From Mariprofundus sp. (GTDB lineage: Bacteria; Pseudomonadota; Zetaproteobacteria; Mariprofundales; Mariprofundaceae), in NCBI GenBank assembly GCA_027019785.1, contig JALUWF010000271.1, positions 1 to 39,673 of the forward strand: 39,673 bases of DNA, written 5' to 3'. How positions within the stretch are numbered: the stretch's first letter is position 1; each line of letters starts with the position of its first letter. Under the pieces are notes generated by a model. The model saw nothing but the letters and a program-made list of their open reading frames with translations, had not been told where the DNA came from and searched no databases. Positions 7,386 through 37,596 of the stretch are shown piece after piece. Both the position numbers and the translations under genes were made by a program.

Positions 7386-7449
7386 GCGTTAGGCCAGAGC
7401 ATTCTCGCAGCGCTCTGTGCCACAACAAACCAAGAAGGAGCATTATAAT

Positions 7450-7998
7450 ATGTCTGTTTATAAACTACGAATGATGATCGTCGCGCTGGCTTTGATCGCC
7501 ATTCCATACCCGGCCATGGCCGGCAGCCAGCAGTTTCCTGTAATCAAACACTTCGGCGGCGCATTTTCACTACCGCATACCGCCGAACAGCCCGATGCAA
7601 GCAAGGCGTACAAGGTAATTTTTGATGTAACGAAAGGTGCTGCGAAACCATCCAAGGTCAATCCCGGCGTATTTCATGTCGCCAAGGCAGTGAATATTAT
7701 GGTTTCTTCCGGCGTACCATTGTCCAATTTACATTTTGTCGCAGTCTTGCACGGCAAGGCAACCGTTTCCGTGCTGGATAATGCGCACTACAAGGCAAAA
7801 TTCGGCGTAGATAATCCAAACATCGCCCTGTTTAAGTCGCTGCGTAAAGCTGGCGTCACAGTGGATGTGTGTGGACAGTCCATGCTCAAGGAACATTATC
7901 AGCTCGCATGGGCCAACCCATACGTCAAACCCGCATTATCAGCGATTACCACGCTCATTATCTATGGCAATCAGGGCTATGCTTATGTCAAGCAATAA
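7450..7998 (+). CDS. Periplasmic DsrE/DsrF-like protein
   Basis: This 182-residue protein has a clear Sec signal peptide (MSVYKLRMMIVALALIAIPYPAMA, cleavage after AMA). The mature part has the DsrE-like fold pattern: YKVIFDVT, then HVAKAVNIMVSSGVP with NLHFVAVLHG, and a late VDVCGQSM carrying the single conserved cysteine. DsrE/TusD-type proteins carry sulfane sulfur on such a cysteine, but most are cytoplasmic, so this would be an exported version. The ATG at 7450 is chosen over one at 7417 because AAGGAG (7435-7440) lies 9 nt before it and the signal peptide then starts correctly. It is first in a plus-strand unit with a solute-binding protein and a four-haem cytochrome. Sulfur transfer is a family inference. 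Confidence 0.82.
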   Translation: MSVYKLRMMIVALALIAIPYPAMAGSQQFPVIKHFGGAFSLPHTAEQPDASKAYKVIFDVTKGAAKPSKVNPGVFHVAKAVNIMVSSGVPLSNLHFVAVLHGKATVSVLDNAHYKAKFGVDNPNIALFKSLRKAGVTVDVCGQSMLKEHYQLAWANPYVKPALSAITTLIIYGNQGYAYVKQ

Positions 7999-8995
7999 AC
8001 AGTCAAGCAATAAACAGTCAAACAATAAACGCTACGGTATCATGCCACATCGCTGTCGCGCATGGGTTACAAGCTGTTTCGTTGCCGCACTGTTCATCGT
8101 TTCGGCAAGTGCAGCCATGGCGGATTCATTCAATCCGCCATGGAGCAAGCCTGCTGTAAATGGCGCCCCCTTTACTGTGCCGGGAGTGGATAACGCGCCT
8201 GATTTTCACGGTGACGTGAATAACCCTGATCTTACCGTATTTTTTGCCGGCAACCAGTATATGGCGGTCAATGCACTGATCACAGCATTCCGGCACTTGC
8301 ATCCGCGCTATCAACATATATTCGCCGAAACATTGCCGCCCGGCATTCTGGCGCGTCAGATCAAGGAAGGTGGACTGGTGATGGGCAATATGCGCATCGC
8401 ATTGAAGCCGGATATTTTTACCGCCGGCCATGGCCGTATCCGTCAATTCAATCAACACGGCTGGTTCTCAAAAACAGCGGATTATGCACGTAACCACCTG
8501 GCAATCATGACCTACAAAGGAAATCCTTTGCATATTTCCGGCTGGCAAGATCTGGCGCGCCGCAATGTGCGCCTGTGCATGCCCAACCCGAAAACCGAAG
8601 GCATTGCCGCGCACGCGATTATTCCTGCCATCACTCAGGCCGGCGGCAAAAAGCTGGAGCAGGTCATCTATGATACCAAGGTTCGACAGGGAACCACTTA
8701 TCTGACTCGCATTCATCACCGCCAAACACCATTGGCGATCATGCGAAAACAGTGTGATGCCGGTGCAGTATGGTTCACCGAGGCGCGCTTCCACAGCCAA
8801 CTTCCCGACCATCCCGTCAGCATGGTGACACTACCGGATGATCAGAATCATACGGTCACCTATGCTGCGGGGATTATGCGTCATGCGCCGCATGCCAAAG
8901 CAGCCGAGGCATTTCTCCGTTTTCTGACCGGGCCTGAAGGGCAGGCGATCTATCAGCATTACGGTTTTCTGCCGGTGACGGGATCAAAGCCATGA
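7985..8995 (+). CDS. Periplasmic solute-binding protein (ModA/PBP-like), orphan
   Basis: The protein belongs to the type-2 periplasmic binding-protein superfamily. It has LTVFFAGNQYMAVNALITAF at the mature N-terminus, a central ISGWQDLARRNVRLCMPNP and a C-terminal AEAFLRFLTGPEGQAIYQHYGF typical of molybdate/sulfate-type binders. The secretion signal is RAWVTSCFVAALFIVSASAAMA. The start at 7985 has AGGG 8 nt upstream and overlaps the DsrE gene end. An alternative ATG at 8042 gives a tighter signal peptide but lacks an obvious ribosome-binding site. No ABC permease or ATPase is nearby, so it may deliver or sense an oxyanion for the adjacent cytochrome rather than feed a transporter. The stop overlaps the next start (ATGA). 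The ligand is unknown. Confidence 0.82.
   Translation: MSSNKQSSNKQSNNKRYGIMPHRCRAWVTSCFVAALFIVSASAAMADSFNPPWSKPAVNGAPFTVPGVDNAPDFHGDVNNPDLTVFFAGNQYMAVNALITAFRHLHPRYQHIFAETLPPGILARQIKEGGLVMGNMRIALKPDIFTAGHGRIRQFNQHGWFSKTADYARNHLAIMTYKGNPLHISGWQDLARRNVRLCMPNPKTEGIAAHAIIPAITQAGGKKLEQVIYDTKVRQGTTYLTRIHHRQTPLAIMRKQCDAGAVWFTEARFHSQLPDHPVSMVTLPDDQNHTVTYAAGIMRHAPHAKAAEAFLRFLTGPEGQAIYQHYGFLPVTGSKP
7989..8033 (+). repeat. 15-bp tandem duplication across a gene overlap
   Basis: The unit CAAGCAATAAACAGT occurs at 7989-8003 and 8004-8018, and a degenerate third copy follows at 8019-8033. The first copy contains the stop codon of the DsrE-like gene. In the frame of the solute-binding protein it encodes SSNKQ-SSNKQ-SNNKR ahead of the signal peptide. 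It looks like replication slippage and leaves both reading frames intact. Confidence 0.9.
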
Positions 8996-10482
8996 GTATG
9001 CGTCGTATCGGGGCGTGGGTGGCCAGCATGATGCTGGCCGCCGCCCCTGCACTGGCCCATGCAGCAGCGAGCAGCGAGCAGCAACAGGGCATGACGATTT
9101 TTCAGCACGGCGGGCATGGCATTCAGGCCTGCGTGAGTTGCCACGGCTCGCAGGCCCGAGGCGGCATGGGGCCAAGACTGGCTGGTCTCGGCCGCGCCTA
9201 CATCATCCGGCAACTGCATGATTTCTCCAGCGATACAAGACATAACCGGGCCATGGAAACTGAGGTAAAACACCTGGATGCTACAAGCATGCGCCAGGTG
9301 GCGACATGGATTGCAACCCTGAAACCTCACCGGTCATCACAAAGCCCACGTATTAAATCATCGATATCGAAACTGATCACGGAGGGTGACTGGTCACGCA
9401 GTATTCCTGCCTGCATTGATTGCCATGCCGGCACGTTGATGGGCGATAGCGATGAAATCCCTGCACTGGCCGGTCAGCAGCATGGCTATATCGCCAAGCG
9501 CCTGCGCTGGTTCAAGGCATTGAAAACACCATTCGGCCCACCTGCGCGCATCATGTCCAATGTCGCCAGTCAACTTTCGGATCAGGAAATCACCGATCTT
9601 GCCAAGGCTCTGTCATCGCTGAACGGAACAACAGTTTCGAGTCTAAAAAAAGAGTACAGTGGTGATTTAACAAGGCATACCGGCATCAAGGAAAGCAAGA
9701 AAATCTCGCCTTCTCCGGGAGCGGCACTTCCGATATCCAAACCGCTGGCGGAAGCTATCCAGCACGGCGAACAAATTTTCATGAATACGCCTGTGCAGGC
9801 CAGGGCGTATGTCGGTAAAAACTCCCGTTTAAGCTGCGTACATTGCCACCTGAATCGCGGCCGGCTTGCTACCGCTGCGCCGATGTGGGCGGCGGCCATC
9901 CGTTATCCGCTGTATCGCAAGAAAAACCATCGCGTCAATACTCTGGCGATGCGCATTCAGGGCTGCTTTCGTTATAGCCTGAACGGCGCGCCGCCTCCGC
10001 CAAACAGTAACACCATGGTCGATTTGATTGCATATATTCATTGGCTGGGTAGCGGGCAAGTCATGGGTAGTCAACCGATTGCACATGGATTCCCGCCCAT
10101 CGCGAAGGCTGCGCAAAGGCCCGACAAATTACGTGGAGCTGATCTGTTTCGCATGCGTTGCGCGTTGTGTCACGGCTTGAACGGACAAGGCAAAGTGCGC
10201 GACAAAAAGGTGCTGTTTCCGCCATTGTGGGGTGCGCACTCCTTTAACTGGGGCGCTGGTTTGCATCGTGTAGACAAGGCGGCCGCTTTTATCAAGGCCA
10301 ATATGCCATACGGCGCCGGCAACAGTCTGAATACGCAGGATGCCTGGGATATTGCCGCTTTCGTGGAATCACATCCGCGTCCCGAAGATCCTCGCTTCAC
10401 CGGTAATATCGCAGAAACCACCCGACGCTTTCATCCACACCGCGATGTAGATTTCTATGCGACCTCACATCCGCAAGAGTAA
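8992..10482 (+). CDS. Four-haem cytochrome c: c4-like N-half plus TsdA-like C-half
   Basis: This is an exported 496-residue protein with a signal peptide ending ALAHA-AA (about 24). It has four CXXCH sites: CVSCH 47-51, CIDCH 141-145, CVHCH 282-286 and CALCH 390-394. The first two lie in repeated class I cytochrome domains like diheme cytochrome c4/c553. The second half looks like thiosulfate dehydrogenase TsdA: a CVHCHLNRGR site, then RIQGCFRYSLNG about 40 residues on, with Cys325 where TsdA supplies the cysteine ligand to its catalytic haem. That matches TsdA spacing (His53/Cys96 in Allochromatium). It may therefore oxidise thiosulfate or reduce tetrathionate, with the N-half acting as a built-in electron acceptor. 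The start overlaps the upstream stop by 4 nt. The TsdA-like assignment is inference from the motif. Confidence 0.87.
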   Translation: MSMRRIGAWVASMMLAAAPALAHAAASSEQQQGMTIFQHGGHGIQACVSCHGSQARGGMGPRLAGLGRAYIIRQLHDFSSDTRHNRAMETEVKHLDATSMRQVATWIATLKPHRSSQSPRIKSSISKLITEGDWSRSIPACIDCHAGTLMGDSDEIPALAGQQHGYIAKRLRWFKALKTPFGPPARIMSNVASQLSDQEITDLAKALSSLNGTTVSSLKKEYSGDLTRHTGIKESKKISPSPGAALPISKPLAEAIQHGEQIFMNTPVQARAYVGKNSRLSCVHCHLNRGRLATAAPMWAAAIRYPLYRKKNHRVNTLAMRIQGCFRYSLNGAPPPPNSNTMVDLIAYIHWLGSGQVMGSQPIAHGFPPIAKAAQRPDKLRGADLFRMRCALCHGLNGQGKVRDKKVLFPPLWGAHSFNWGAGLHRVDKAAAFIKANMPYGAGNSLNTQDAWDIAAFVESHPRPEDPRFTGNIAETTRRFHPHRDVDFYATSHPQE

Positions 10483-25932: not shown

Positions 25933-26098
25933 TCCGGCTTATCCAGAGCGGTGGAGGGTGCAGGCCCTATGATACTGCGGCAACCGGCCAAAGAGTGCGT
26001 TTTTGTAATGTTTTTTTGTAAACAAAGCGTGACTCCGAGGAGAATGGTGCCAATGCCTGCCTGAGAGGAGTACCTCAAGGGAGCGATAATGCGGGTTG
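25933..26098 (+). promoter_or_regulatory. SAM-I (S-box) riboswitch aptamer
   Basis: The conserved S-box segments appear in order: CTTATCCAGAGCGGTGGAGG from 25938, GGCCCTATGA at 25963-25972, GCGGCAACC at 25977-25985, a variable arm, and GGTGCCAATGCCTGC at 26046-26060. A GAGG/CCTC hairpin follows. P1 closes with TTATC (25939-25943) against GATAA (26085-26089). SAM-I riboswitches bind S-adenosylmethionine and switch off methionine and sulfur genes. Here it precedes a gene that looks like threonine synthase, which is an unusual target. A terminator hairpin follows at 26134. The assignment rests on visual consensus matching. Confidence 0.88.
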
Positions 26099-26133
26099 TT
26101 CGTCTGATGCATGCGTGCACTCTCTTGATACAA

Positions 26134-26160
26134 CCTTTGCTTTATCGCGGAGGTTTTTTT
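26134..26160 (+). terminator. Riboswitch-controlled intrinsic terminator
   Basis: CCTTTGC (26134-26140) pairs with GCGGAGG (26147-26153, two G-T wobbles) around a TTTATC loop, followed directly by seven T. A competing antiterminator can form between GGTTGT (26094-26099) and ACAACC (26130-26135). That would disturb both this stem and the base of P1, so SAM binding should favour termination. It lies 36 nt before the ThrC-like start. Confidence 0.8.
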
Positions 26161-26195
26161 GTTTTTGGGGTTAGCTGATATTGGAGATGAGGCAG

Positions 26196-27443
26196 ATGAA
26201 CATTGTTCGTGCATTGAAATGCAGAGAATGCGGTCAGGAATACGATATCCAGCCCACCCACGTTTGCGAGTTCTGCTTCGGGCCGCTGGAAGTGGTCTAT
26301 GACTATGAGAAACTCGATGGCTATTTCACCCGTGAATTGATCGAATCGCGTCCGCAAACCATGTGGCGCTACAAAGAACTGTTGCCGATCAATGGCGAAC
26401 CGACGGTGGGTGCACAGAATGGTTTTACGCCACTGGTGCGCGCCAGGAATCTGGAAAAAGTGCTAGGCGTATCCGAGTTGTATATCAAAAACGATTCGGT
26501 CTGCTATCCAACCCTGTCATTCAAGGATCGTGTGGTTTCTGTGGCACTGTCCAAAGCCGTCGAGTTCGGCTTCAAGACTGTCGCTTGCGCTTCAACAGGC
26601 AACCTAGCCGGTTCGGTGGCGGCCAATGCGGCGGCGGCAGGACTGGAATCCTATGTGTTTATTCCGCACGATCTGGAGCAGGGCAAGGTGCTGGGCGCGG
26701 CTATTTTCGGTACGCGTATTATCGGCATTAAGGGTAAATATGACGATGTGAATCGTCTGTGTTCAGAAGTGGCCGGGAAATATGGCTGGGCTTTTGTGAA
26801 TGTGAATGTACGTCCGTTTTATGCCGAAGGCTCCAAATCGCTCGGTTATGAAGTGATGGAGCAGATGGGGTGGAAAGCTCCTAAACATGTGGTCGTGCCG
26901 ATGGCATCTGGCTCATTGTGTACCAAGATTCACAAGTCGATCAAGGAATTCATCCAGTTGGGACTGATCGAAGATAATGGTACGGCCATGTATGGCGCGC
27001 AGGCCACTGGTTGTTCTCCAATTACTAAATCGGTGAAAGACGGCACGGATCTGATTCACCCGGTGATTGCCGATACCATTGCCAAATCACTGGCCATTGG
27101 CAACCCGGCGGATGGTTATTATGCCAATCGCGTGATTAACGAAACTGGCGGCTGGGCTGAAGATGTGTCCGATGAGGAAGTGGTGGATGCCATGAAACTG
27201 TTGGCGGAAACCGAAGGGATATTCGCTGAAACGGCTGGCGGCGTCACGCTAGGCTGCGCCAAAAAACTGATTGAATCTGGCAAGTTGCCGCGTGATGAAT
27301 CGATTGTACTGTGTATTACCGGGAATGGATTGAAAACGCAGGAAGCTATTGTTGATGCGGTCAATAAACCGCGCATCATTGATGCCAGCCTGAAAGATTT
27401 CGATGCGCTGGCTGAAGCCGATGGCTTCGAAGCCGCCGTATAA
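26196..27443 (+). CDS. Threonine-synthase-like PLP enzyme, candidate homocysteine synthase
   Basis: This 415-residue fold-type II PLP enzyme is homologous to threonine synthase. It has an N-terminal zinc ribbon (CREC at 9-12, CEFC at 24-27). The PLP lysine is Lys110 in LSFKDRVVSVA, the phosphate-binding loop is ASTGNLAGSVA, and the C-terminus has LCITGNGLKT. Threonine synthase acts on O-phosphohomoserine. The gene lies under a SAM riboswitch and next to a CysO-like sulfur carrier, a NIL domain, CysK, MoeB and sulfite reductase. That suggests it replaces phosphate with sulfur from a protein thiocarboxylate to give homocysteine. The family is certain; the new reaction is inference, and ordinary threonine synthase remains possible. 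The ATG at 26196 has GGAG 10 nt upstream. Confidence 0.9.
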   Translation: MNIVRALKCRECGQEYDIQPTHVCEFCFGPLEVVYDYEKLDGYFTRELIESRPQTMWRYKELLPINGEPTVGAQNGFTPLVRARNLEKVLGVSELYIKNDSVCYPTLSFKDRVVSVALSKAVEFGFKTVACASTGNLAGSVAANAAAAGLESYVFIPHDLEQGKVLGAAIFGTRIIGIKGKYDDVNRLCSEVAGKYGWAFVNVNVRPFYAEGSKSLGYEVMEQMGWKAPKHVVVPMASGSLCTKIHKSIKEFIQLGLIEDNGTAMYGAQATGCSPITKSVKDGTDLIHPVIADTIAKSLAIGNPADGYYANRVINETGGWAEDVSDEEVVDAMKLLAETEGIFAETAGGVTLGCAKKLIESGKLPRDESIVLCITGNGLKTQEAIVDAVNKPRIIDASLKDFDALAEADGFEAAV

Positions 27444-27561: not shown

Positions 27562-27840
27562 ATGAGTGTATCTGTACGAATCCCGACTCCGCTGCGTAAG
27601 TTGACTGGCGGTGCTGATGAAGTGGCCATTGAAGGCACCAATGTCGGCGAAATTATTGAGAATCTGGAAGCGGCGCATCCGGGCTTGAAAGAGCGTTTGT
27701 GTGATGATGACGGCGAAATTCGCCGTTTCGTGAATGTCTATGTGAATGATGAAGATGTACGTTTTCTGGAAGGGCGCGGCACTGTGCTGAAAGATGGCGA
27801 TGAAGTGTCCATCGTGCCGGCTATCGCAGGCGGTTGCTAA
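27562..27840 (+). CDS. CysO/MoaD/ThiS-like sulfur carrier ending Gly-Gly-Cys
   Basis: This is a 92-residue beta-grasp sulfur carrier. It looks most like mycobacterial Cys[19 protein letters not shown] in the middle and [14 protein letters not shown] near the end. Such carriers are adenylated at the C-terminal glycine by a MoeB-like enzyme and converted to a thiocarboxylate that donates sulfur. Here an extra cysteine follows the Gly-Gly, so the tail must be trimmed before activation. Extra tail residues removed by a JAMM-type protease are known for other carriers (for example QbsE), but no such protease is in this window. AAAGGAG lies 7 nt before the start. The stop shares one base with the NIL gene start. 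Confidence 0.93.
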
Positions 27841-28163: not shown

Positions 28164-28190
28164 AAAAAAAGGTTGTGAATGGAGTGGGAT

Positions 28191-29123
28191 ATGGCGATAT
28201 ATAATAATGTAGCGGAAACGATCGGCAACACGCCGCTGGTTCGATTGAACCGGATTGGTGCGGATCTGGATGCGGAAATCATTGTCAAGTGTGAGTTTTA
28301 TAATCCACTGAGTTCGGTCAAGGATCGAATCGGCAAAGCCATGATTGAAGCGGCTGAAGCCGATGGCAGTCTCAAGGCAGGTGGCGTGATTGTCGAGCCG
28401 ACCTCCGGCAATACCGGTATTGCGCTGGCCTTCGTGGCGCGTGCAAAGGGTTATCGCTGTATCCTGACCATGCCGGAATCGATGAGTCTGGAACGGCGTA
28501 AGCTACTCAAATTGCTGGGTGCTGAATTGGTGTTGACACCAGCTGAAAAAGGCATGAAAGGCGCCATTGCCAGGGCCGCTGAAATTGTCTCGGAGACTGA
28601 TAACGCTTTTATGCCGCAACAGTTCGAGAATCCGGCCAACCCAGAAATTCATCGCCAAACCACAGCACAGGAAATATGGAGTGATTGTGATGGCAAGGTG
28701 GATGCCATTGTCGCTGGCGTAGGCACTGGTGGCACCATTACCGGTGTTGCCGAAGTGATTAAACAGCGTAATCTGGATTTCAAGGCGTTTGCTGTAGAGC
28801 CTGCCGCTTCGCCGGTGATTTCCGGCGAAGCGGCAGGTCCGCACAAAATTCAGGGCATCGGTGCGGGCTTTATCCCGAAGAACCTGAATGTCGATATTCT
28901 CGATGGCGCGGTTAAGGTAACCAATGACGAAGCGTTTGAAATGGCGCGTCGTTTGTCCAATGAAGAGGGTATCCCCGGCGGCATCTCCTCCGGCGCAGCC
29001 GTTGCGGCAGCTTTGCAGGTAGCGGCACGCCCGGATATGAAAGGCAAACGCATCATCGTCATTTTGCCCTCCATGGCCGAACGCTATATGTCCACCGACC
29101 TGTTTAAGGGCATTGAAGTATAA
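28191..29123 (+). CDS. cysK: Cysteine synthase (CysK/CysM family)
   Basis: This 310-residue fold-type II PLP enzyme makes cysteine from an activated serine and sulfide or a carrier thiocarboxylate. Key motifs are [11 protein letters not shown] (PLP lysine), [12 protein letters not shown] (substrate loop), [10 protein letters not shown] (phosphate loop), [13 protein letters not shown] and the C-terminal GGISSGAAV. The GAGFIP segment favours the CysK type that uses O-acetylserine. Adjacency to a CysO-like carrier recalls mycobacterial CysM, which uses O-phosphoserine. Which acceptor is used cannot be decided by eye. The ATG at 28191 has GGAG 7 nt upstream. Hairpin repeats lie on both sides. Confidence 0.93.
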
Positions 29124-29207: not shown

Positions 29208-30029
29208 ATGATTGATTTTACGGAAGAACAGATTGAACGTTATTCGCGGCATATTATTTTGCCGGAAGTGGGCGCGGAAGGGCAGTCCAAACTGCTGGAA
29301 TCCAAAGTGTTTATGATTGGCGCTGGCGGGCTGGGCTCTCCCGTGGCCTATTATCTGGCCGCAGCAGGCGTCGGCACCATCGGCATCGCCGATGCCGATG
29401 TGGTGGATTCATCCAATTTGCAGCGCCAGATCATTCATAATCAGGATCGCATTGGCATGCCCAAGGTGGAGAGTGCGCGCGAAACTATGCAGGCGCTAAA
29501 CCCTGATGTGAAGGTCAATACCTACAATTACTTCATTACCGAGGATAATGTGCGCGAAATCATCCGCGATTACGATTTGATTATCGATGGTTGTGATAAT
29601 TTCCCAACACGATTTCTGGTCAATGACGCCTGCTATTTCGAGAAAAAACCGCTGATTTCAGGCGCTATGTTCCGTTTTGAGGGGCAGGTCGCCACCTTTA
29701 AGCCGCATCAGGAAAAGGGGGCGCCATGTTATCGTTGCCTGTATCCCGAGCCACCGCCGGCAGGTCTGGTGCCTTCGTGCTCCGAGGCTGGCATTCTGGG
29801 CGCACTGGCTGGTGCAGTCGGCACGATTCAGGCTGTCGAGGCGATTAAGGAATTACTTGGCATCGGTGAGTCACTGGCTGGTAGATTGATGGTATTCGAT
29901 GCCCTGCGCATGGAATGGAAGAAGCTGAAGTTGCACAAAGATCCGGCTTGCCCGCTGTGCGGCGAGAATCCAACCATCACCGATCTGGTGACTTACGAAC
30001 AAGCCTGCGAACTAAAATTCGGGCAATAG
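29208..30029 (+). CDS. moeB: MoeB/ThiF-like adenylyltransferase (carrier-activating enzyme)
   Basis: This 273-residue E1-like enzyme uses ATP to adenylate the C-terminal glycine of MoaD/ThiS-type carriers. The nucleotide site is MIGAGGLGSPVAYYLAAAGVG (residues 36-56). DADVVDSSNLQRQIIH and the DGCDNFPTRFLVND segment follow. Zinc is bound by the pairs CYRC and CPLC. It has no C-terminal rhodanese domain, so sulfur must come from elsewhere. The next gene, a sulfite reductase fused to a TusA domain, is the obvious source. It probably activates the carrier encoded at 27562 rather than molybdopterin synthase, because no other molybdenum-cofactor gene is present. GGAG precedes the start. Confidence 0.93.
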   Translation: MIDFTEEQIERYSRHIILPEVGAEGQSKLLESKVFMIGAGGLGSPVAYYLAAAGVGTIGIADADVVDSSNLQRQIIHNQDRIGMPKVESARETMQALNPDVKVNTYNYFITEDNVREIIRDYDLIIDGCDNFPTRFLVNDACYFEKKPLISGAMFRFEGQVATFKPHQEKGAPCYRCLYPEPPPAGLVPSCSEAGILGALAGAVGTIQAVEAIKELLGIGESLAGRLMVFDALRMEWKKLKLHKDPACPLCGENPTITDLVTYEQACELKFGQ

Positions 30030-30124: not shown

Positions 30125-32473
30125 ATGACAGAGTTTCAATTTACGCAAACAGCCGATGTGGATGAATTCGAGGCCGGTTATAAGGCATTTCGGGCCGGTA
30201 CGATGTCCGAAGAACGCTTTACGCCGTTCCGCTTGCAGATGGGCGTCTATGGTCAACGCCAGGAAGGTGTGCAGATGGTGCGCATCAAATTGCCTGGCGG
30301 CTTATTGACGCCGGAACAACTCGATGTGATTGCCGATTGTGTGGAAGATTATACGGGCCAGTTGCCAACCGATGGCACTGTGAGCGTAGCGCCGACCAAG
30401 GTGGCGCATGTTACAACGCGTCAGGATATTCAGGCTAATTTTGTGGCGCTGGATGATGTCGTTTCATTTTTGCGTCGTCTCGATGCGGTCGGGCTGACCA
30501 CGCGTGAAGCCTGCGGTAATACCGTGCGTAATGTGAGCGCCTGTTTTCTGGCTGGCGTATGTCCGGCAGAGCATGCCGATGTGACTGTGCATGCACGTCA
30601 ATTTGCAGAATTCTGTTTGCGCCATCCCTTGACCCAGCAGTTCCCGCGCAAATTCAAGGTGGTGTTTTCCGGTTGTGATACGGATTGCGGTCTGTCCGGC
30701 ATGCATGATGCAGGATTTATAGCTACCCATAGAGATGGTAAGCCGGGCTTCAAAGTTTGGGCTGCTGGCGGATTATCGTCCCAGCCGATGAGTGCGATTC
30801 TGCTGGAAGAATTTATTGAAGAGTCTGAGCTGTTTGTGGTCGGCGAAGCGTTGATGCGCATGCATTTCAAATATTCCGAACGCAAACGCCGCGCCCGCGC
30901 CCGCATGAAATATGTGGCGCAGAAGCTGGGTGTGGAAGGCTTTATCGAAGAATATCGCAAGCAGCGGGCAGTCATTGAAAAAACACACGGTGATGATCTG
31001 TTCGGCGAGGCGCATTGGCGGATGCCAACGGCATCGCTGCCTGAATCACCAAGCGGGGTGGTTGATCAGCATGACGGCAAGCACGCCGTGCTGCTGAACC
31101 TGTTTCGCGGCGATATGACGCCTGCCCAGTGCCGGGCGGTGGCCAGCGCATCGCGTCTGGCAGAGGGCTCCAGTCTGCGCGCCACTGCCGAGCAGGGAAT
31201 TATCATTACCGGTGTGGATACTGCCGATGTGGCGGCTGTGCAGTCCGCCTTGAATGAAGCCGGGTTGCAGACAAAGGATGCACGCGGCATTGCTGATATT
31301 GTGGCATGTCCGGGCACGGAAACCTGTCGTTTGGGCATCACCTCAAGCCGTGGCCTGGCGGCGGCCTTGCAACCATTGATGGCAGATTTCAAAACGGATT
31401 CAACACTGGCCGGAATTACCGTCAAAGCATCAGGTTGTCAGCATTCCTGCGCCCGTCACCATATTGCCGATCTCGGATTTCACGGTCTGGCCAAGAAAAT
31501 CGACGGCCAGGCGGTGCCGCATTATCAGTTGCATATTGGCGGTTCCGGCAAGGGCGGCGAACATCTGGCCTTTGCGACCGATCCGGTACCCGCTGTGCGC
31601 GCTCCGGAAGCGGGCATCACCGTACTCAAGGCGTATAAAAATGACCGCAAAGCAGATGAAAGCGTGCATGACTGGGCTTCGCGTATCGGGCAGCAGGCGA
31701 TCAATGCTATTCTGGCGCCGTTTGCCGGTCAGTCGGGTGAAGTGGACGGTTTGATTTACGATTGGAGCGAAAACGAAGCATTCAATACCAAGGGTAACAA
31801 GAAGGGCGAATGCGCCGGGGCTGTGCTCTCGATGTCCGATGCGCTGATTTCCGAAGCGCAATATGAGTTGCTGATTGCGCGTGCGCATATCGATGCGATG
31901 TTCTGGGCCGAAGCGCTGACGGCGTTGCGGAGTTCGGCTATTTCGGCGGCGCGTGCATTTCTGGTGCCGTTCGGCGAAGCGCCGGAAGAAGATGCGCAGG
32001 TATTCGGTTTGCTTGCCGTGAATGCGGCTGCTGATAGCGAACTGATGGCTGGCTTTCAGGCTGTGCAATCGGCGCTGATGAATATTGATCTGGCCGATCC
32101 TGCGGCTGGTGTGACCCATCTGCGTCATGTGCAGTCGGACTGGCTGAAACTGGCAGGCGTGCGTTTTGCTGCGGTGCCGGAAGCTGTTGAAGCTGAAGAA
32201 GAAGCATCTGATGATGTGCAAACTGATGCAGCAACTGATGATATCGTGCTACTCGATCTCTCCGGCGTGGCCTGTCCGATGAATTTTGTGAAAACAAAAA
32301 TCAAGTTGTCCATGCTGCCGGTTGGTGCGCAGTTGGATGTGATTCTCGATGATGGTGCGCCGATTGAAAATGTACCGCTATCGCTCGAAGAACAGGGGCA
32401 GAAAGTGCATGCCAAGGAGAAAATTTCCGACACCCAATGGAAGATTCGGGTTGAGAAGATTTCCGCTATCTGA
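30125..32473 (+). CDS. Siroheme sulfite reductase fused to TusA domain
   Basis: The 782 residues begin with a nitrite/sulfite reductase region. The first ferredoxin-like half contains LTTREACGNTVRNVSAC and FSGCDTDCGLSGMHDAGF. The second half holds the siroheme-[4Fe-4S] ligands Cys395 and Cys401 (CPGTETC) and Cys438 and Cys442 (GCQHSC). A middle region (about 500-690) has no recognised motif. Residues about 708-782 are a TusA/SirA domain with LLDLSGVACPMNFVKTKIKL, its sulfur-carrying cysteine near 715. The enzyme would reduce sulfite to sulfide, and the tethered TusA could hold the sulfur as persulfide for the neighbouring carrier system. The electron donor is probably ferredoxin, because no flavin domain is present. 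The fusion is unusual. Ammonia-forming nitrite reduction is less likely given the operon. Confidence 0.9.
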   Translation: MTEFQFTQTADVDEFEAGYKAFRAGTMSEERFTPFRLQMGVYGQRQEGVQMVRIKLPGGLLTPEQLDVIADCVEDYTGQLPTDGTVSVAPTKVAHVTTRQDIQANFVALDDVVSFLRRLDAVGLTTREACGNTVRNVSACFLAGVCPAEHADVTVHARQFAEFCLRHPLTQQFPRKFKVVFSGCDTDCGLSGMHDAGFIATHRDGKPGFKVWAAGGLSSQPMSAILLEEFIEESELFVVGEALMRMHFKYSERKRRARARMKYVAQKLGVEGFIEEYRKQRAVIEKTHGDDLFGEAHWRMPTASLPESPSGVVDQHDGKHAVLLNLFRGDMTPAQCRAVASASRLAEGSSLRATAEQGIIITGVDTADVAAVQSALNEAGLQTKDARGIADIVACPGTETCRLGITSSRGLAAALQPLMADFKTDSTLAGITVKASGCQHSCARHHIADLGFHGLAKKIDGQAVPHYQLHIGGSGKGGEHLAFATDPVPAVRAPEAGITVLKAYKNDRKADESVHDWASRIGQQAINAILAPFAGQSGEVDGLIYDWSENEAFNTKGNKKGECAGAVLSMSDALISEAQYELLIARAHIDAMFWAEALTALRSSAISAARAFLVPFGEAPEEDAQVFGLLAVNAAADSELMAGFQAVQSALMNIDLADPAAGVTHLRHVQSDWLKLAGVRFAAVPEAVEAEEEASDDVQTDAATDDIVLLDLSGVACPMNFVKTKIKLSMLPVGAQLDVILDDGAPIENVPLSLEEQGQKVHAKEKISDTQWKIRVEKISAI

Positions 32474-32491: not shown

Positions 32492-35137
32492 ATGACTCCC
32501 ATTACTGATCTGCATCCGTTTGCCAATCCGGGGCGCACCAAGCTGTCGCTGGTGAGTCGGGGGGTGGCCTTGCCGGATGGTTTGCAGCAGTCATCCAAAT
32601 GGATTTCGCAGGCCAATGCGATTGAAACGGTGCTGGATATCCGTCTGCCGACAGGTCAGATGTGTACCGTGCCGGTCGGCCAGCCCTATACGGAAAAGAG
32701 TACGTTTTCGCTGCATCATCAAGGTGATAAAACAGAACTGCATTGCGCCGGCGAGGTGTCTCCGGTCACGCTGCTGCCAGCGCCCGGATTTTATCAGAAA
32801 ACCACCCGCAGCGGCGCCCGAATGGGCAGTTTCGCGGCCTTGCATGATCGGCTGCTTATTTTACACCCGTTTCTGGGTTGCGGTTTTTTCAATAAGCCTG
32901 ATCAGGCCTGCCAGTATTGCCAGTACGATTCAATGCTCAATGAGGCGGAGCCGCCGCTGCGCGACCCGCTGGAACTGGTCGAGGCGGTGCGGGCGGCACT
33001 GGCCGAGCGGGAAGTGGATACGGTTTATCTGTATAACGGCTATTCTCCGTCGGATGATGTCGGGTTGCGACGGCTGGTCGCTGTTATCGCCCTGTTGCGC
33101 AAGCATTTGGGGCATAGGCAAATTGCTGTAGAGACTGTTGCGCCATCCGATTTAAACGCTATTGATGAGTTGTACGAGGCGGGGCTGGATGTGTTTGTCT
33201 GCAATGTCGAGGTGCACGATGCTAATCGATTCGCCCAAATCTGTCCGGGCAAACAGGCCATTGGCGGTCAGCAAGCCATCTACAGAGCGCTGAATTATGC
33301 CCGTTCGGTATTTCGACCGGGCGCAGTGGTGAGCCATCTGATTGTCGGACTGGAACCATTGAACTCAACGATTGAAGGCATGAAACAGTTAATCGGGCAA
33401 GGCATTGTGCCGATGCTATTACCGTTTCGCCCGCTGCCCGGAACTGCCTTGAGCGATTGCCCGCTGGCCAGCCTCGACGATGTCGAGCAGGCCCTGCTGG
33501 TGCAATATGAATTGCTGGAGGCCACTGGCATGCCCACGCATCGATTGCGGGCTATGGGACGCGTACTGACGCCAATGGAAAGCGGTCTGCTGGTGGGTAA
33601 GGAGCCGTATCTGCCCGAGCAAGTGGCGACATCCAGCGTGGGGCGCCGTCTGTCCGGCTGGCTGGATGGACTGCGTCGCTATTTGCGATCAAATGGCAAG
33701 ATTGATGCGCGAGAACGGCAGGCAAGGACACAGTCGATACACTGGCTGCTGGCCAAACAAGGCGTACCGTTTCTGGCCATGGCGATTTTTTCGATGCTCG
33801 GCTTGTGGGTCGGTATGCACGATGCGCCAACCGGTTTAACCGAACAGGGGTGGCGTGCGCTGCTGATTTTCCTGTTTTGCCTGGCTCTGTGGGTGAGCGG
33901 ACTGATTCCGCTGGCTGTGACATCGCTGTTGGGGCTGGCGCTGTTGCCTATAACGGGTGTCGTACCAGCTGTAGAAGCCTATAGCATGTTCGGCTCTCCG
34001 GCAGTGTTTTTCATTTTGGGCGCGTTTATGCTGGCGGCAGGGGCGCGGGCGACCGGATTGTCCGAGCATATCGCATTGACCCTGATTGACAGGTTAGGGT
34101 CGGGACCGAAACAACTGTTGCTGGTGATGCTGTTTTTGCCGGCCACGATGGCCTTCGTGATGCCTGAGCATGCCGTGGCGGCGATATTTTTACCGATTGT
34201 ATGGGATATCGTGCGTAATCTGGGATTGAAAATTGGTGACCGCTATGCTCAGTCGCTGTTTTTTGCGGTGGCGTGGGGCGCCATTATCGGCGGCGTGATG
34301 ACGTTGCTGGGCGGTGCTCGCGGCCCGTTGGCGCTGGGCATGGTGCAGCAAATTTCCGGTCATTCATTCACCTTTATGGACTGGACACTGGCTGCTGCAC
34401 CTCTGGTGGTGTTGATGCTGGCGGTAGCCATGCTGCTGTTACTGGTGATTACACCATTTGACGGCGTCAACATAGCGAAGGCCCGGCAGTATATTGAAAA
34501 GAGGCAGTTGGAGTTGGGTAATCTGGAACCGCGCGGCTGGCTGATGGGCGTTTTGCTGGCATCTACGGTGGTGGCCTGGATGGTTGGCGGCCATTCCACA
34601 TCACTGGCGGCCATTGCTCTGCTCAGTGTGGCGGCGATGTTTGCCCTGCGACTGGTTAGCTGGGAAGAGATTGAACATCAGGTGAGCTGGAGCGTGGTGC
34701 TGATGTATGGCGGTGCAATTGCAGTCGGTTCCGCATTGAGCGTGAGCGGCGCAGGCGCATGGTTGGCCATGCAACTGTTCCCTCCGGGGCTGACTGGCTT
34801 ATCGCTGATTGTGATGCTGGTGCTGGCGACACTGTTGCTGACCGAAGGCGTCAGTAATGCGGCGGCGGTGGCGATTCTGTTGCCAGTGGCCATTCCGGTT
34901 GGCGTTGCGGCGGGGGTTGATCCGCTGACGCTGGCGCTGGCAGTCGGCATTATTGCCGGTTTCGCTTTTATGCTGCCGATGGGTACGCCGCCCAATGCCA
35001 TGGTGTATGGTACCGGCTTTGTGCAACGGCTGGCGATGTTGCGATTCGGCGCTGTGTTGTCTGTATCGGCACTGATTTTGTTTGTGGTGCTTGTGCAGGC
35101 GTGGTGGCCGATGATTGGTTTTGGAACCGGTGGGTGA
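32492..35137 (+). CDS. Radical-SAM domain fused to SLC13/DASS anion transporter
   Basis: This 881-residue protein joins two unrelated parts. Residues about 110-370 look like a radical SAM barrel, with a cluster motif CX9CX2C (Cys130, Cys140, Cys143 in FLGCGFF...ACQYCQYD), then VYLYNGYSPSDD and LIVGLEPLNSTIEG. Residues about 425-881 are a full SLC13/DASS transporter of many hydrophobic helices, with SPAVFFILGAFMLAAGARATG, GVSNAAAVAILLPV (second substrate loop) and GTPPNAMVYGTG. The first loop has MPEHAVAAIFLP in place of the usual Ser-Asn-Thr. The gene follows sulfite reductase by 18 nt and precedes cysD, so sulfate or another sulfur anion is a likely cargo. The radical SAM reaction is unknown. 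No good ribosome-binding site is seen. Confidence 0.85.
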   Translation: MTPITDLHPFANPGRTKLSLVSRGVALPDGLQQSSKWISQANAIETVLDIRLPTGQMCTVPVGQPYTEKSTFSLHHQGDKTELHCAGEVSPVTLLPAPGFYQKTTRSGARMGSFAALHDRLLILHPFLGCGFFNKPDQACQYCQYDSMLNEAEPPLRDPLELVEAVRAALAEREVDTVYLYNGYSPSDDVGLRRLVAVIALLRKHLGHRQIAVETVAPSDLNAIDELYEAGLDVFVCNVEVHDANRFAQICPGKQAIGGQQAIYRALNYARSVFRPGAVVSHLIVGLEPLNSTIEGMKQLIGQGIVPMLLPFRPLPGTALSDCPLASLDDVEQALLVQYELLEATGMPTHRLRAMGRVLTPMESGLLVGKEPYLPEQVATSSVGRRLSGWLDGLRRYLRSNGKIDARERQARTQSIHWLLAKQGVPFLAMAIFSMLGLWVGMHDAPTGLTEQGWRALLIFLFCLALWVSGLIPLAVTSLLGLALLPITGVVPAVEAYSMFGSPAVFFILGAFMLAAGARATGLSEHIALTLIDRLGSGPKQLLLVMLFLPATMAFVMPEHAVAAIFLPIVWDIVRNLGLKIGDRYAQSLFFAVAWGAIIGGVMTLLGGARGPLALGMVQQISGHSFTFMDWTLAAAPLVVLMLAVAMLLLLVITPFDGVNIAKARQYIEKRQLELGNLEPRGWLMGVLLASTVVAWMVGGHSTSLAAIALLSVAAMFALRLVSWEEIEHQVSWSVVLMYGGAIAVGSALSVSGAGAWLAMQLFPPGLTGLSLIVMLVLATLLLTEGVSNAAAVAILLPVAIPVGVAAGVDPLTLALAVGIIAGFAFMLPMGTPPNAMVYGTGFVQRLAMLRFGAVLSVSALILFVVLVQAWWPMIGFGTGG

Positions 35138-35151
35138 ATCCTGGGGTTATA

Positions 35152-35160
35152 TGCTATAAT
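35152..35160 (+). promoter_or_regulatory. Extended -10 promoter for cysDN
   Basis: TGCTATAAT is a perfect extended -10 box (TGnTATAAT) in the 76-nt gap after the radical-SAM/SLC13 gene. The -35 region is poor, as is normal for extended -10 promoters. It would start transcription near 35167, about 47 nt before the cysD ATG, so cysDN can be expressed apart from the SAM-regulated genes upstream. Confidence 0.6.
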
Positions 35161-35213
35161 GCCGGCCATAATATTTATGTGCGCAAGATGTAAAATAAAT
35201 GCAGGAGACATGC

Positions 35214-36152
35214 ATGTCAGAACGTAACATATCAGAACGTAACATACCTGAACATAAACTGACCCAGCTTAAGGCGCTGGAGGCGGAATCGATTCATATC
35301 ATCCGCGAAGTGGTAGCCGAGTTTCGTAATCCGGTGATGCTGTATTCGGTCGGCAAGGATTCCAGCGTGCTATTGCATCTGGCGCGCAAGGCATTTTATC
35401 CGGCCCCGTTACCGTTTGCGTTGTTGCATGTCGATACAGGTTTCAAATTCAAGGAAATGTATGAATTCCGTGATACCTTCTGCAAGGAAATCGGTGCGAA
35501 TCTGATTGTGCGTAAAAATGAGGAAGCCATCGCCAAGGGTATGAATCCGAAAGAATTCGGGGTAGCGCGTTGCTGTGGAGCACTGAAAACCAAGGGTCTG
35601 CTCGATGCGCTGGAAGAGGGCGAGTATGACGCCGCATTTGGTGGTGCGCGCCGTGATGAAGAGCGCAGCCGAGCCAAGGAACGCGTGTTTTCCATGCGCG
35701 ATGAGTTTGGTCAATGGGATCCGAAGAATCAGCGTCCCGAACTGTGGAGCTTGTACAATGGCCGGATTCATGAAGGAGAAAGCGTGCGCGTATTTCCGAT
35801 CTCCAACTGGACGGAAATGGATATCTGGCTATATATCCGCGAAGAGGAGATTCCGATTGTGCCGCTGTATTTTGCTAAAGAGAGATTGATGGTGGAGCGC
35901 AAGCATCTGCTGATCCCCTATTACGAAGAAATGAAGGATCAGTTGCTCGAAGGCGAGGAGCCGAAGATGGTGATGTGCCGTTTTCGTACGCTCGGATGCA
36001 GCCCGTGTACGGGCGCTGTGCGCTCCGATGCCACCAATATGGATGAGATTGTCATCGAGGCGGCCGCAGCACGCCGCTCGGAGCGTGAAACACGCATCAT
36101 CGATCACGGCTCCAACAGCATGGAAGACAAGAAAAAAGAAGGTTACTTCTAG
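35214..36152 (+). CDS. cysD: Sulfate adenylyltransferase subunit 2
   Basis: CysD is the catalytic, PP-loop half of ATP sulfurylase, which with CysN makes adenosine 5'-phosphosulfate from sulfate and ATP. The 312 residues include the PP-loop [55 protein letters not shown] and the CysD-specific C-terminus [12 protein letters not shown]...KKEGYF. The ATG at 35214 is chosen because AGGAGA lies 5 nt upstream; an earlier ATG at 35199 precedes that element. The N-terminus carries a 15-bp tandem duplication giving SERNI twice. Neither cysC nor cysH is in the window. Confidence 0.97.
35217..35246 (+). repeat. 15-bp tandem duplication in the cysD start region
   Basis: TCAGAACGTAACATA is repeated exactly at 35217-35231 and 35232-35246, with a diverged third unit after it. 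It encodes [15 protein letters not shown] at the extreme N-terminus of CysD and keeps the frame. It looks like recent slippage in a region that tolerates length change. Confidence 0.9.
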
Positions 36153-36166
36153 GGTTTGATTGATGC

Positions 36167-36289
36167 GCAAAAGGGCTCCTGCCCTTTTGCTTGAACGGCA
36201 GAAGAAAAGCGTGGTTTTCTTCTGCCTCACGAATCAGCAGAAGCTGATTCGCCGCCCCTCGTGGGCGGTAGTGGAGCTCCCGGACGGGG
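36167..36289 (+). repeat. Array of consecutive perfect hairpins between cysD and cysN
   Basis: Four hairpins follow one another. The first is GCAAAAGGGC/GCCCTTTTGC (36167-36190, loop TCCT). The second is GGCAGAAGAAAA/TTTTCTTCTGCC (36197-36226, loop GCGTGG). The third is CGAATCAGC/GCTGATTCG (36230-36251, loop AGAA). The fourth is CCGCCC/GGGCGG (36252-36268). A weaker TCCC/GGGG stem ends at 36289. The stem sequences are unrelated, all stems are perfect, and the spacers are at most 6 nt. The frame of cysN stays open through the array, but a sound ribosome-binding site and start lie after it, so it is probably non-coding. No T-run marks it as a terminator. Confidence 0.85.
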
Positions 36290-36315
36290 TCTGGGAAAGT
36301 TTTGAGGATGAAGTG

Positions 36316-37596
36316 ATGACTAAACTTAATATCAAGGTAGCTGAAGAAATCGAATTGCTGCGACTGGTGACGGTGGGCAGCGTGGATGATGGTAAATCAA
36401 CCCTGATCGGGCGTCTGTTGGTGGATACAAAGGGCGCATTTGAAGATCAGCTGCTGGCCGTGCGCAAAGAGAGGGGGGCGGAACAAATTGCATCCGCTGC
36501 CGAGATTGATCTGGCCATGCTGACCGATGGTTTGTCCGCCGAACGCGAGCAGGGCATTACCATTGATGTGGCCTACCGCTATTTTGCTACGCCGAAGCGC
36601 AAGTTCATTATGGCTGATTGTCCGGGGCACGTGCAATACACCCGTAATATGGTGACCGGCGCATCCACTGCTAATGCTGCGATTATCCTGATTGATGCGC
36701 GCAATGGCGTCATGCAGCAAACCAGACGCCATACCCATATTTTGGGCTTGCTGGGGATTTCACATCTGATTGTGGCAATCAACAAAATGGATCTGGTCGA
36801 TTACGATCAGACTGTATTTGAAAGTATCCGTGACGAGATGGATAAATATTGTGCCAAACAGGGCGTGAAGGATCTGATTTGCCTGCCAATGTCGGCGCTT
36901 GATGGCGACATGGTCGCTGTGCGCGGTGATAATATGCACTGGTATGATGGCAAAACGCTATTGGAAACTCTGGAAAGTTTGTCTGTGCTGGGCGATGTGG
37001 ATACGCAACCATTCCGCCTGCCGGTGCAACTGGTCAACCGACCGCAGACGGCTGATTTGCCGGATTATCGCGGTTTTATGGGCACGATTGCTTCCGGTAC
37101 GGTAAAAGTTGGTGATGCGGTCAAGGCGATTCCCAGTGGCAATACCTCGACCGTAAAAGAGATTGTCACCTTCGATGGTAATCTGGAAGAAGCCTTTGCA
37201 CCGCAAAGTATTACGCTGACTCTGAATGATGAGATTGATGTGTCGCGTGGCGATATGCTGGTGCATCCGGGCCAGGAAACCGCCAACAACAAGGAGCTGA
37301 CAGCCAATGTCTGCTGGATTGGCGATGAACAGCTCTCGGCGCGCAAGAAATATGTGCTCAAGCATACCACCAACAGTGTCAAGGCGATGGTGGCCAGCAT
37401 TGATTTCCGTCGTGATATTAATACGTTGAACAGGGATGAGGCGGATGAACTGGTGATGAATGAAATCGGTCAGATCACGTTCCAATTACAAAAACCGTTG
37501 CACTGCGATAGTTACGCTGACAATCGTATAACCGGTAGTTTTATTGTGATCGATACGTTCACCAATAACACCGTTGGCGCAGGCATGGTTCTTTAA
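36316..37596 (+). CDS. cysN: Sulfate adenylyltransferase subunit 1 (GTPase)
   Basis: CysN is the EF-Tu-like GTPase that activates CysD for APS synthesis. The 426 residues have the G1 loop VGSVDDGKSTLIGRL (residues 20-34), switch region EREQGITIDVAYRYF, G3 ADCPGHVQYTRNM and G4 NKMD. Two beta-barrel domains follow. The length shows there is no fused APS kinase (CysC). The ATG at 36316 is chosen because GAGG lies 8 nt upstream and known CysN proteins start close to this point. An upstream ATG at 36160 would add 52 residues encoded by the hairpin array, which look random. Confidence 0.96.
   Translation: MTKLNIKVAEEIELLRLVTVGSVDDGKSTLIGRLLVDTKGAFEDQLLAVRKERGAEQIASAAEIDLAMLTDGLSAEREQGITIDVAYRYFATPKRKFIMADCPGHVQYTRNMVTGASTANAAIILIDARNGVMQQTRRHTHILGLLGISHLIVAINKMDLVDYDQTVFESIRDEMDKYCAKQGVKDLICLPMSALDGDMVAVRGDNMHWYDGKTLLETLESLSVLGDVDTQPFRLPVQLVNRPQTADLPDYRGFMGTIASGTVKVGDAVKAIPSGNTSTVKEIVTFDGNLEEAFAPQSITLTLNDEIDVSRGDMLVHPGQETANNKELTANVCWIGDEQLSARKKYVLKHTTNSVKAMVASIDFRRDINTLNRDEADELVMNEIGQITFQLQKPLHCDSYADNRITGSFIVIDTFTNNTVGAGMVL

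Follow-up and report, generated by a model that had tools for sequence, protein, structure and literature searches.

The window analysed here, the whole stretch of 39,673 nucleotides, contains a gene that joins a radical SAM (rSAM) domain to a transporter of the DASS/SLC13 family in one uninterrupted reading frame. Our reading of its product, to which we give an even chance of being right, is that of a two-function membrane protein that would combine sulfate-type import with a radical SAM enzyme in a zetaproteobacterial sulfate-assimilation operon. The sequence itself shows two domains with conserved residues in cluster and pocket, genes that are joined or overlap, control by a SAM riboswitch and membership of a sulfur operon. 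The gene and its parts are as follows.

32492..35137, + strand: rSAM-SLC13 fusion gene (881 aa; single open reading frame, Pfam and NCBIfam domains, fused in 58/66 relatives)
32492..33691, + strand: rSAM half (residues 1-400), a beta-rich N-terminal part followed by a BioB/LipA/HydE-like barrel
33647..33736, + strand: variable basic linker (~residues 386-415), delimited by junction comparison, the split site of relatives, model confidence and charge
33737..35134, + strand: DASS/SLC13 transporter half (residues 416-881; PF00939, TIGR00785, Foldseek)

The frame opens with an ATG codon and runs through 881 codons (32492-35137, + strand) with zero internal stops. Its N-terminal half matched the Pfam domain Radical_SAM (PF04055, residues 138-291, E 1.7e-8, 35.2 bits against a cut-off of 29.5) and the NCBIfam model variant_rSAM (NF045502, residues 62-322, E 3e-52, 177.8 bits against 125), and its C-terminal half matched Na_sulph_symp (PF00939, residues 437-876, E 1.8e-61, above cut-off) and dass (TIGR00785, E 2.9e-78, 263.6 bits against 198.6). 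The original prediction of one 881-residue chain with an rSAM and an SLC13 domain, and neither stop nor frameshift between them, was thus borne out. Both NCBIfam models also matched all complete fused homologues scanned (49/49). In the genome from which the window comes, the fusion is a single-copy gene; the sole further match was partial, weak and confined to the transporter part.

An alignment of the rSAM domain, scanned against ~85,000 named species genomes, retrieved 66 loci, all of them zetaproteobacterial according to record title or tree position, including those of the isolates M. ferrooxydans PV-1, M. erugo, M. micogutta, strain KV and strain EBB-1. The junction lies within one frame in 58 of them, seven (L106, L118, L134, L146, L151, L153 and L154) have an adjacent pair of genes on the same strand, and the remaining one (L143) is cut by a contig end. 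In L134 the two split genes are ~270 nt apart; in the other six pairs they either overlap by a few bases or are spaced by 2 nt. The same fusion and neighbouring split versions of it, for which a search had been proposed, were therefore both found among the 66 loci; homologues always encoded as two genes with an intergenic gap, named beforehand as the outcome that would speak against the fusion, were not. A search of 61 genomes recovered both halves throughout the Zetaproteobacteria, mostly in one frame, and they co-occur in every zetaproteobacterial locus with both sides visible. In two genomes with an apparent transporter only (G227 and G138), the gene is on a short contig that breaks off at the expected place of the rSAM part. 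A quick maximum-likelihood tree places all split rows inside a single well-supported clade of 19 and requires no more than two state changes. Fusion therefore probably came first and splitting later, although the long outgroup branch makes the root of this tree uncertain. The pairing of the two families is itself old within the Zetaproteobacteria.

Pairwise dN/dS (rSAM half 0.04-0.10, transporter half 0.04-0.15) indicates strong purifying selection on both halves, and the conservation of the rSAM half equals or exceeds that of the transporter half. An erroneous joining of two genes during assembly or annotation could be suspected, since most source genomes are MAGs and frame or stop errors occur in L130, L131 and L154. 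However, the same open junction is present in independent isolates and in dozens of unrelated assemblies, and dN/dS is low across the whole frame, which leaves such an error a vanishingly small probability. With 58/66 loci fused, cultured isolates included, we excluded an assembly artefact: the fusion is real, far beyond chance or assembly error.

The linker between the halves has ~20-30 residues and varies in length and sequence among relatives. In the full-length AlphaFold2 model, the junction consists of a basic helix (residues 382-401) followed by a segment of low confidence (402-413, pLDDT <50). The N-terminus of SLC13 proteins is generally cytoplasmic. Because nine K/R against three D/E (residues 381-415) precede the first membrane helix, the N-terminus of the fusion is also expected to be cytoplasmic, and the rSAM half should therefore be able to reach SAM. 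Four features stand out in the rSAM half.

32879..32920, + strand: CX9CX2C [4Fe-4S]-cluster motif (C130/C140/C143), invariant in 51/51 sequences, with the spacing found in Nit1C rSAM proteins
33200..33202, + strand: C237, an extra invariant cysteine (51/51; Met in Nit1C relatives) at the end of barrel strand 234-237 of the AlphaFold2 model
33242..33244, + strand: C251, an extra invariant cysteine (51/51; Met in Nit1C relatives) in a CPGK motif
33554..33580, + strand: segment MGRVLTPME (residues 355-363), conserved here and missing from the Nit1C relatives

The cluster motif lies within LGCGFFNKPDQACQYC, and the CX9CX2C spacing claimed from the sequence is literally that of C130-GFFNKPDQA-C140-QY-C143. 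C237 and C251 may have a catalytic role or serve a further Fe-S site. The segment MGRVLTPME lies partly within a stretch (356-371) with pLDDT <50 in the full-length model; the strong conservation of such a low-confidence stretch may reflect a partner or ligand missing from the model. The AlphaFold2 model of the rSAM half (pLDDT 85.5, pTM 0.84) had as best Foldseek matches HydE (best E 3.4e-9), lipoyl synthase (LipA 5exi, rmsd 2.8 over 238 columns), PylB and biotin synthase, and a sequence search of the PDB with the rSAM profile gave zero matches. The domain match above cut-off, the barrel fold and the three cluster cysteines place this half in the radical SAM superfamily.

Among the sampled Pseudomonadota genomes, its nearest relatives outside Zetaproteobacteria were Nit1C/MSMEG_0568 proteins in nitrilase clusters and one CX3CX2C protein. 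The Nit1C/MSMEG_0568 rSAM family (TIGR04043, of which NF045502 is a superset) resembles the fusion in its NF045502 score above cut-off, its CX9CX2C spacing and its similar core motifs. However, Nit1C rSAM proteins are stand-alone and encoded in a nitrilase gene cluster, whereas the rSAM of the fusion belongs to a sulfur operon in nearly all zetaproteobacterial loci; they carry a C-terminal CxxCxxC that the fusion lacks; and C237, C251 and MGRVLTPME are specific to the fusion, with Met at both cysteine positions and no such segment in the Nit1C relatives. We rejected membership of the Nit1C family (96.4 bits with TIGR04043 against a cut-off of 303.7, and no nitrilase cluster context). A 2005 study tied Nit1C rSAM to COG2516 biotin-synthase-related proteins (PMC1199592). 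With lipoyl synthase, biotin synthase and HydE the fusion shares the barrel fold, but it has CX9CX2C instead of the CX3CX2C of that group, an identity of at most 20% and no LipA auxiliary motif (CX4CX5C). A role as lipoyl synthase was rejected, a canonical LipA being encoded elsewhere in 8/8 genomes checked and the auxiliary motifs missing. So were LipS1/LipS2, whose criteria (CX3CX2C plus auxiliary-cluster cysteines) were compared with PMC9585515: the fusion has CX9CX2C and two further invariant cysteines only, and scored 23 against 270 bits with the LipS2 model. The genome scan, which finds exact GLD[IV]F[VI]CN or MGRV[LM]TPM peptides only, returned no close relative outside Zetaproteobacteria, and a plasmid search returned none above 31% identity. 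A relative annotated as MSMEG_0568 family radical SAM protein is carried by 420 plasmid records, 369 of them from Klebsiella (e.g. NZ_CP095422). Judged from these comparisons of sequence, the rSAM half is a new subfamily, distant (24-27% identity) from the Nit1C/MSMEG_0568 enzymes and with a predicted BioB/LipA/HydE-type fold.

The family model above cut-off and the fold, with Foldseek matches to NaDC3, NaCT, NaS1 and VcINDY, place the C-terminal half in DASS/SLC13. It is like VcINDY, NaS1 and the bacterial DASS sulfate permeases in TIGR00785 and fold, and unlike them in its fusion to rSAM and in the first two of these motifs.

34163..34171, + strand: PEH (558-560) replacing the first Ser-Asn-Thr motif of VcINDY (49/49; VcINDY alignment; common to the SLC13 protein of G041, a genome outside Zetaproteobacteria)
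34310..34321, + strand: GGAR (607-610) replacing the GSP(PN) segment of VcINDY (49/49; common to the G041 SLC13)
34853..34861, + strand: SN(A/S/T) (788-790), the second SNT motif, largely kept (sequence conservation)

The two Ser-Asn-Thr motifs of a VcINDY-type Na+ symporter are thus not both present, the first being PEH in 49/49 sequences. Because Arg and His residues fill the Na+ sites in DASS exchangers (PMC7553777), canonical two-site Na+ coupling in the transporter half is doubtful. The PEH/GGAR subfamily of SLC13, possibly with altered cation coupling, also includes a non-fused relative (L049). Sulfate transporters of the bacterial DASS type are established (PMC5840216), and the operon context makes the same function the likeliest one for the transporter half. 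The neighbours in the window are the following.

25936..26092, + strand: SAM riboswitch (S box, RF00162; 58.3 bits)
26181..27443, + strand: threonine synthase-like PLP enzyme (thrC; TIGR00260 above cut-off)
27562..27840, + strand: ThiS/MoaD/SAMP-type sulfur carrier (NF041918 above cut-off)
28179..29123, + strand: cysK (TIGR01139)
29208..30029, + strand: MoeB/ThiF-type E1-like adenylyltransferase (moeB; PF00899, NF004281)
30125..32473, + strand: sulfite-reductase-type protein with a C-terminal TusA domain (SiR-TusA; PF01077, PF03460, PF01206)
35199..36152, + strand: cysD (NF009214)
36160..37596, + strand: cysN (TIGR02034)

A SAM-regulated sulfur operon beside the fusion had been part of the original prediction, and the riboswitch (25936-26092) and the downstream cysD and cysN confirm it. 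A terminator-like hairpin (26132-26155) follows the riboswitch. The gene order thrC, SAMP, cysK, moeB, SiR-TusA, fusion, (cysH), cysD, cysN, preceded in the window by the SAM riboswitch, is kept in nearly all zetaproteobacterial loci. In these, cysH usually lies between the fusion and cysD; the clade of the window has no cysH there (35138-35198), and the genome of the window has a gene of the PAPS-reductase family (cysH) on another contig (G000:C342:9861-10382). A further TusA-like ORF (~72 aa), missing from the window, separates cysH from cysD in many zetaproteobacterial loci (e.g., L107 7955-8170, L116 4435-4650). The set formed by riboswitch, thrC, SAMP, cysK and moeB (25936-26200 onward) resembles protein-thiocarboxylate pathways for cysteine or homocysteine.

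With a SAM riboswitch at the operon head, a SAM-binding fold placed by fusion on a nutrient transporter and invariant cluster cysteines, the rSAM half might alternatively be a regulatory sensor of SAM (or of iron/redox), in which cluster-bound SAM would gate the sulfate permease as a fast protein-level partner to the riboswitch. We consider this unlikely: the conserved enzyme-like pocket and the two extra invariant cysteines exceed the needs of sensing, the halves are separate proteins in seven genomes, and a linker so variable in length and sequence is poorly suited to tight allosteric coupling. Rather than a pure SAM sensor, we favour radical chemistry that is anchored to the membrane and serves sulfur assimilation.

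The genome G041 has the operon thrC-SAMP-cysK-moeB-cysH-SiR/TusA-sat-SLC13, without rSAM; its sat (ATP sulfurylase) was named by sequence and place, not by family scan. The SLC13 protein encoded directly after sat is 37-42% identical to the zetaproteobacterial transporters and has the same PEH/GGAR. The transporter thus has its place in the sulfur operon with or without the rSAM. Its position beside ATP sulfurylase there makes a role as sulfate permease the most likely one, and the lack of rSAM in that operon makes the rSAM half most likely a lineage-specific addition. An essential role of the rSAM in sulfate assimilation was rejected, as the similar operon of G041 does without it. SiR and TusA are united in one chain across the zetaproteobacterial loci and also in the G041 operon. 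No sulfate ABC permease (CysT/CysW) above cut-off was detected in the 22 genomes tested, and SulP-family proteins occur in all 22; we rejected the SLC13 half as the only sulfate importer on this account.

Several of these traits could also indicate the uptake of an organosulfur anion (sulfonate or similar) that the rSAM half would cleave or rearrange to free sulfite for the neighbouring sulfite reductase: the transporter half is of a dianion family, the SiR-TusA gene immediately precedes the fusion, and the change from SNT to PEH could mean an altered substrate. In addition, isethionate sulfur assimilation in R. capsulatus involves an rSAM protein named after NifB (PMC11423573), which may or may not be related to this domain. 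However, cysDN (usually with cysH too) directly follow the fusion and are required for sulfate, not for sulfite release, and the G041 relative stands beside ATP sulfurylase without rSAM and with the same PEH motif. This makes the release of sulfite by the fusion improbable.

There might also be no working link between the halves. An rSAM gene captured in the operon and fused through co-translation could catalyse an unrelated house-keeping reaction and be merely tethered to the membrane, which would agree with an operon that does without rSAM in G041, with separate genes at seven loci and with the variable linker. We see little chance of this, since both halves are always together where visible, the fusion persists across the order with a single clade of splits, and 6/7 split pairs keep overlapping or touching frames.

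The reading that we prefer remains a protein with both import and radical chemistry. It is supported by the fused or adjacent halves, the sulfur operon, the sat-SLC13 arrangement of G041, the lack of CysT/CysW, the invariant cysteines, the conservation of the rSAM half and its HydE/LipA/BioB fold. Against it, a SulP protein is present in every genome checked, so that sulfate may also, or even mainly, enter by another route than the SLC13 half; the rebuilt first cation/substrate half-site (SNT to PEH) makes substrate and coupling ion uncertain; the operon outside Zetaproteobacteria lacks rSAM, which is unneeded for sulfate assimilation as such; and no stand-alone relative has an established reaction, Nit1C, the nearest named group, being uncharacterised. 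In such a protein, the SLC13/DASS half would supply CysDN, CysH and SiR-TusA with an imported divalent oxyanion, sulfate being the likeliest, and the rSAM half, a cytoplasmic and probably active enzyme of the BioB/LipA/HydE type, would be kept on the transporter's inner face by the short basic linker. The radical reaction might then take place near uptake, on a small molecule or a protein of the same pathway, and would benefit from the closeness of enzyme and transporter. More tentatively, and with a chance well short of even, the two activities may be directly coupled, either because the rSAM acts on the anion delivered by the SLC13 half (or on its immediate derivative) or because radical chemistry gates the transporter.

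No fusion between a radical SAM enzyme and a secondary transporter has, to our knowledge, been described. The superfamily of each half is already known. The open-access literature searched, a scope that leaves out most subscription journals, contained neither the fusion nor the rSAM subfamily nor the remodelled SLC13 half-site. IspH-UbiA (PMC4746011) likewise unites an Fe-S enzyme and a membrane protein in one chain but differs in enzyme, partner and pathway. Conservation across the sampled Zetaproteobacteria in a sulfate operon with a SAM riboswitch suggests that sulfur assimilation includes a radical step yet to be discovered or a new way of controlling transport. Sulfur metabolism would provide a functional anchor for one branch of an rSAM family whose other named branch, Nit1C, is without known reaction. 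If true, a transporter-coupled rSAM would represent a novel type of radical enzyme at the membrane, specific to the iron-oxidising Zetaproteobacteria. Elsewhere in the window (7417-10482), genes for a DsrE-family protein, a solute-binding protein and a cytochrome c with a SoxA/TsdA domain stand in a row, adjoined by a LysR-type regulator, in what looks like a sulfur-oxidation or thiosulfate locus.
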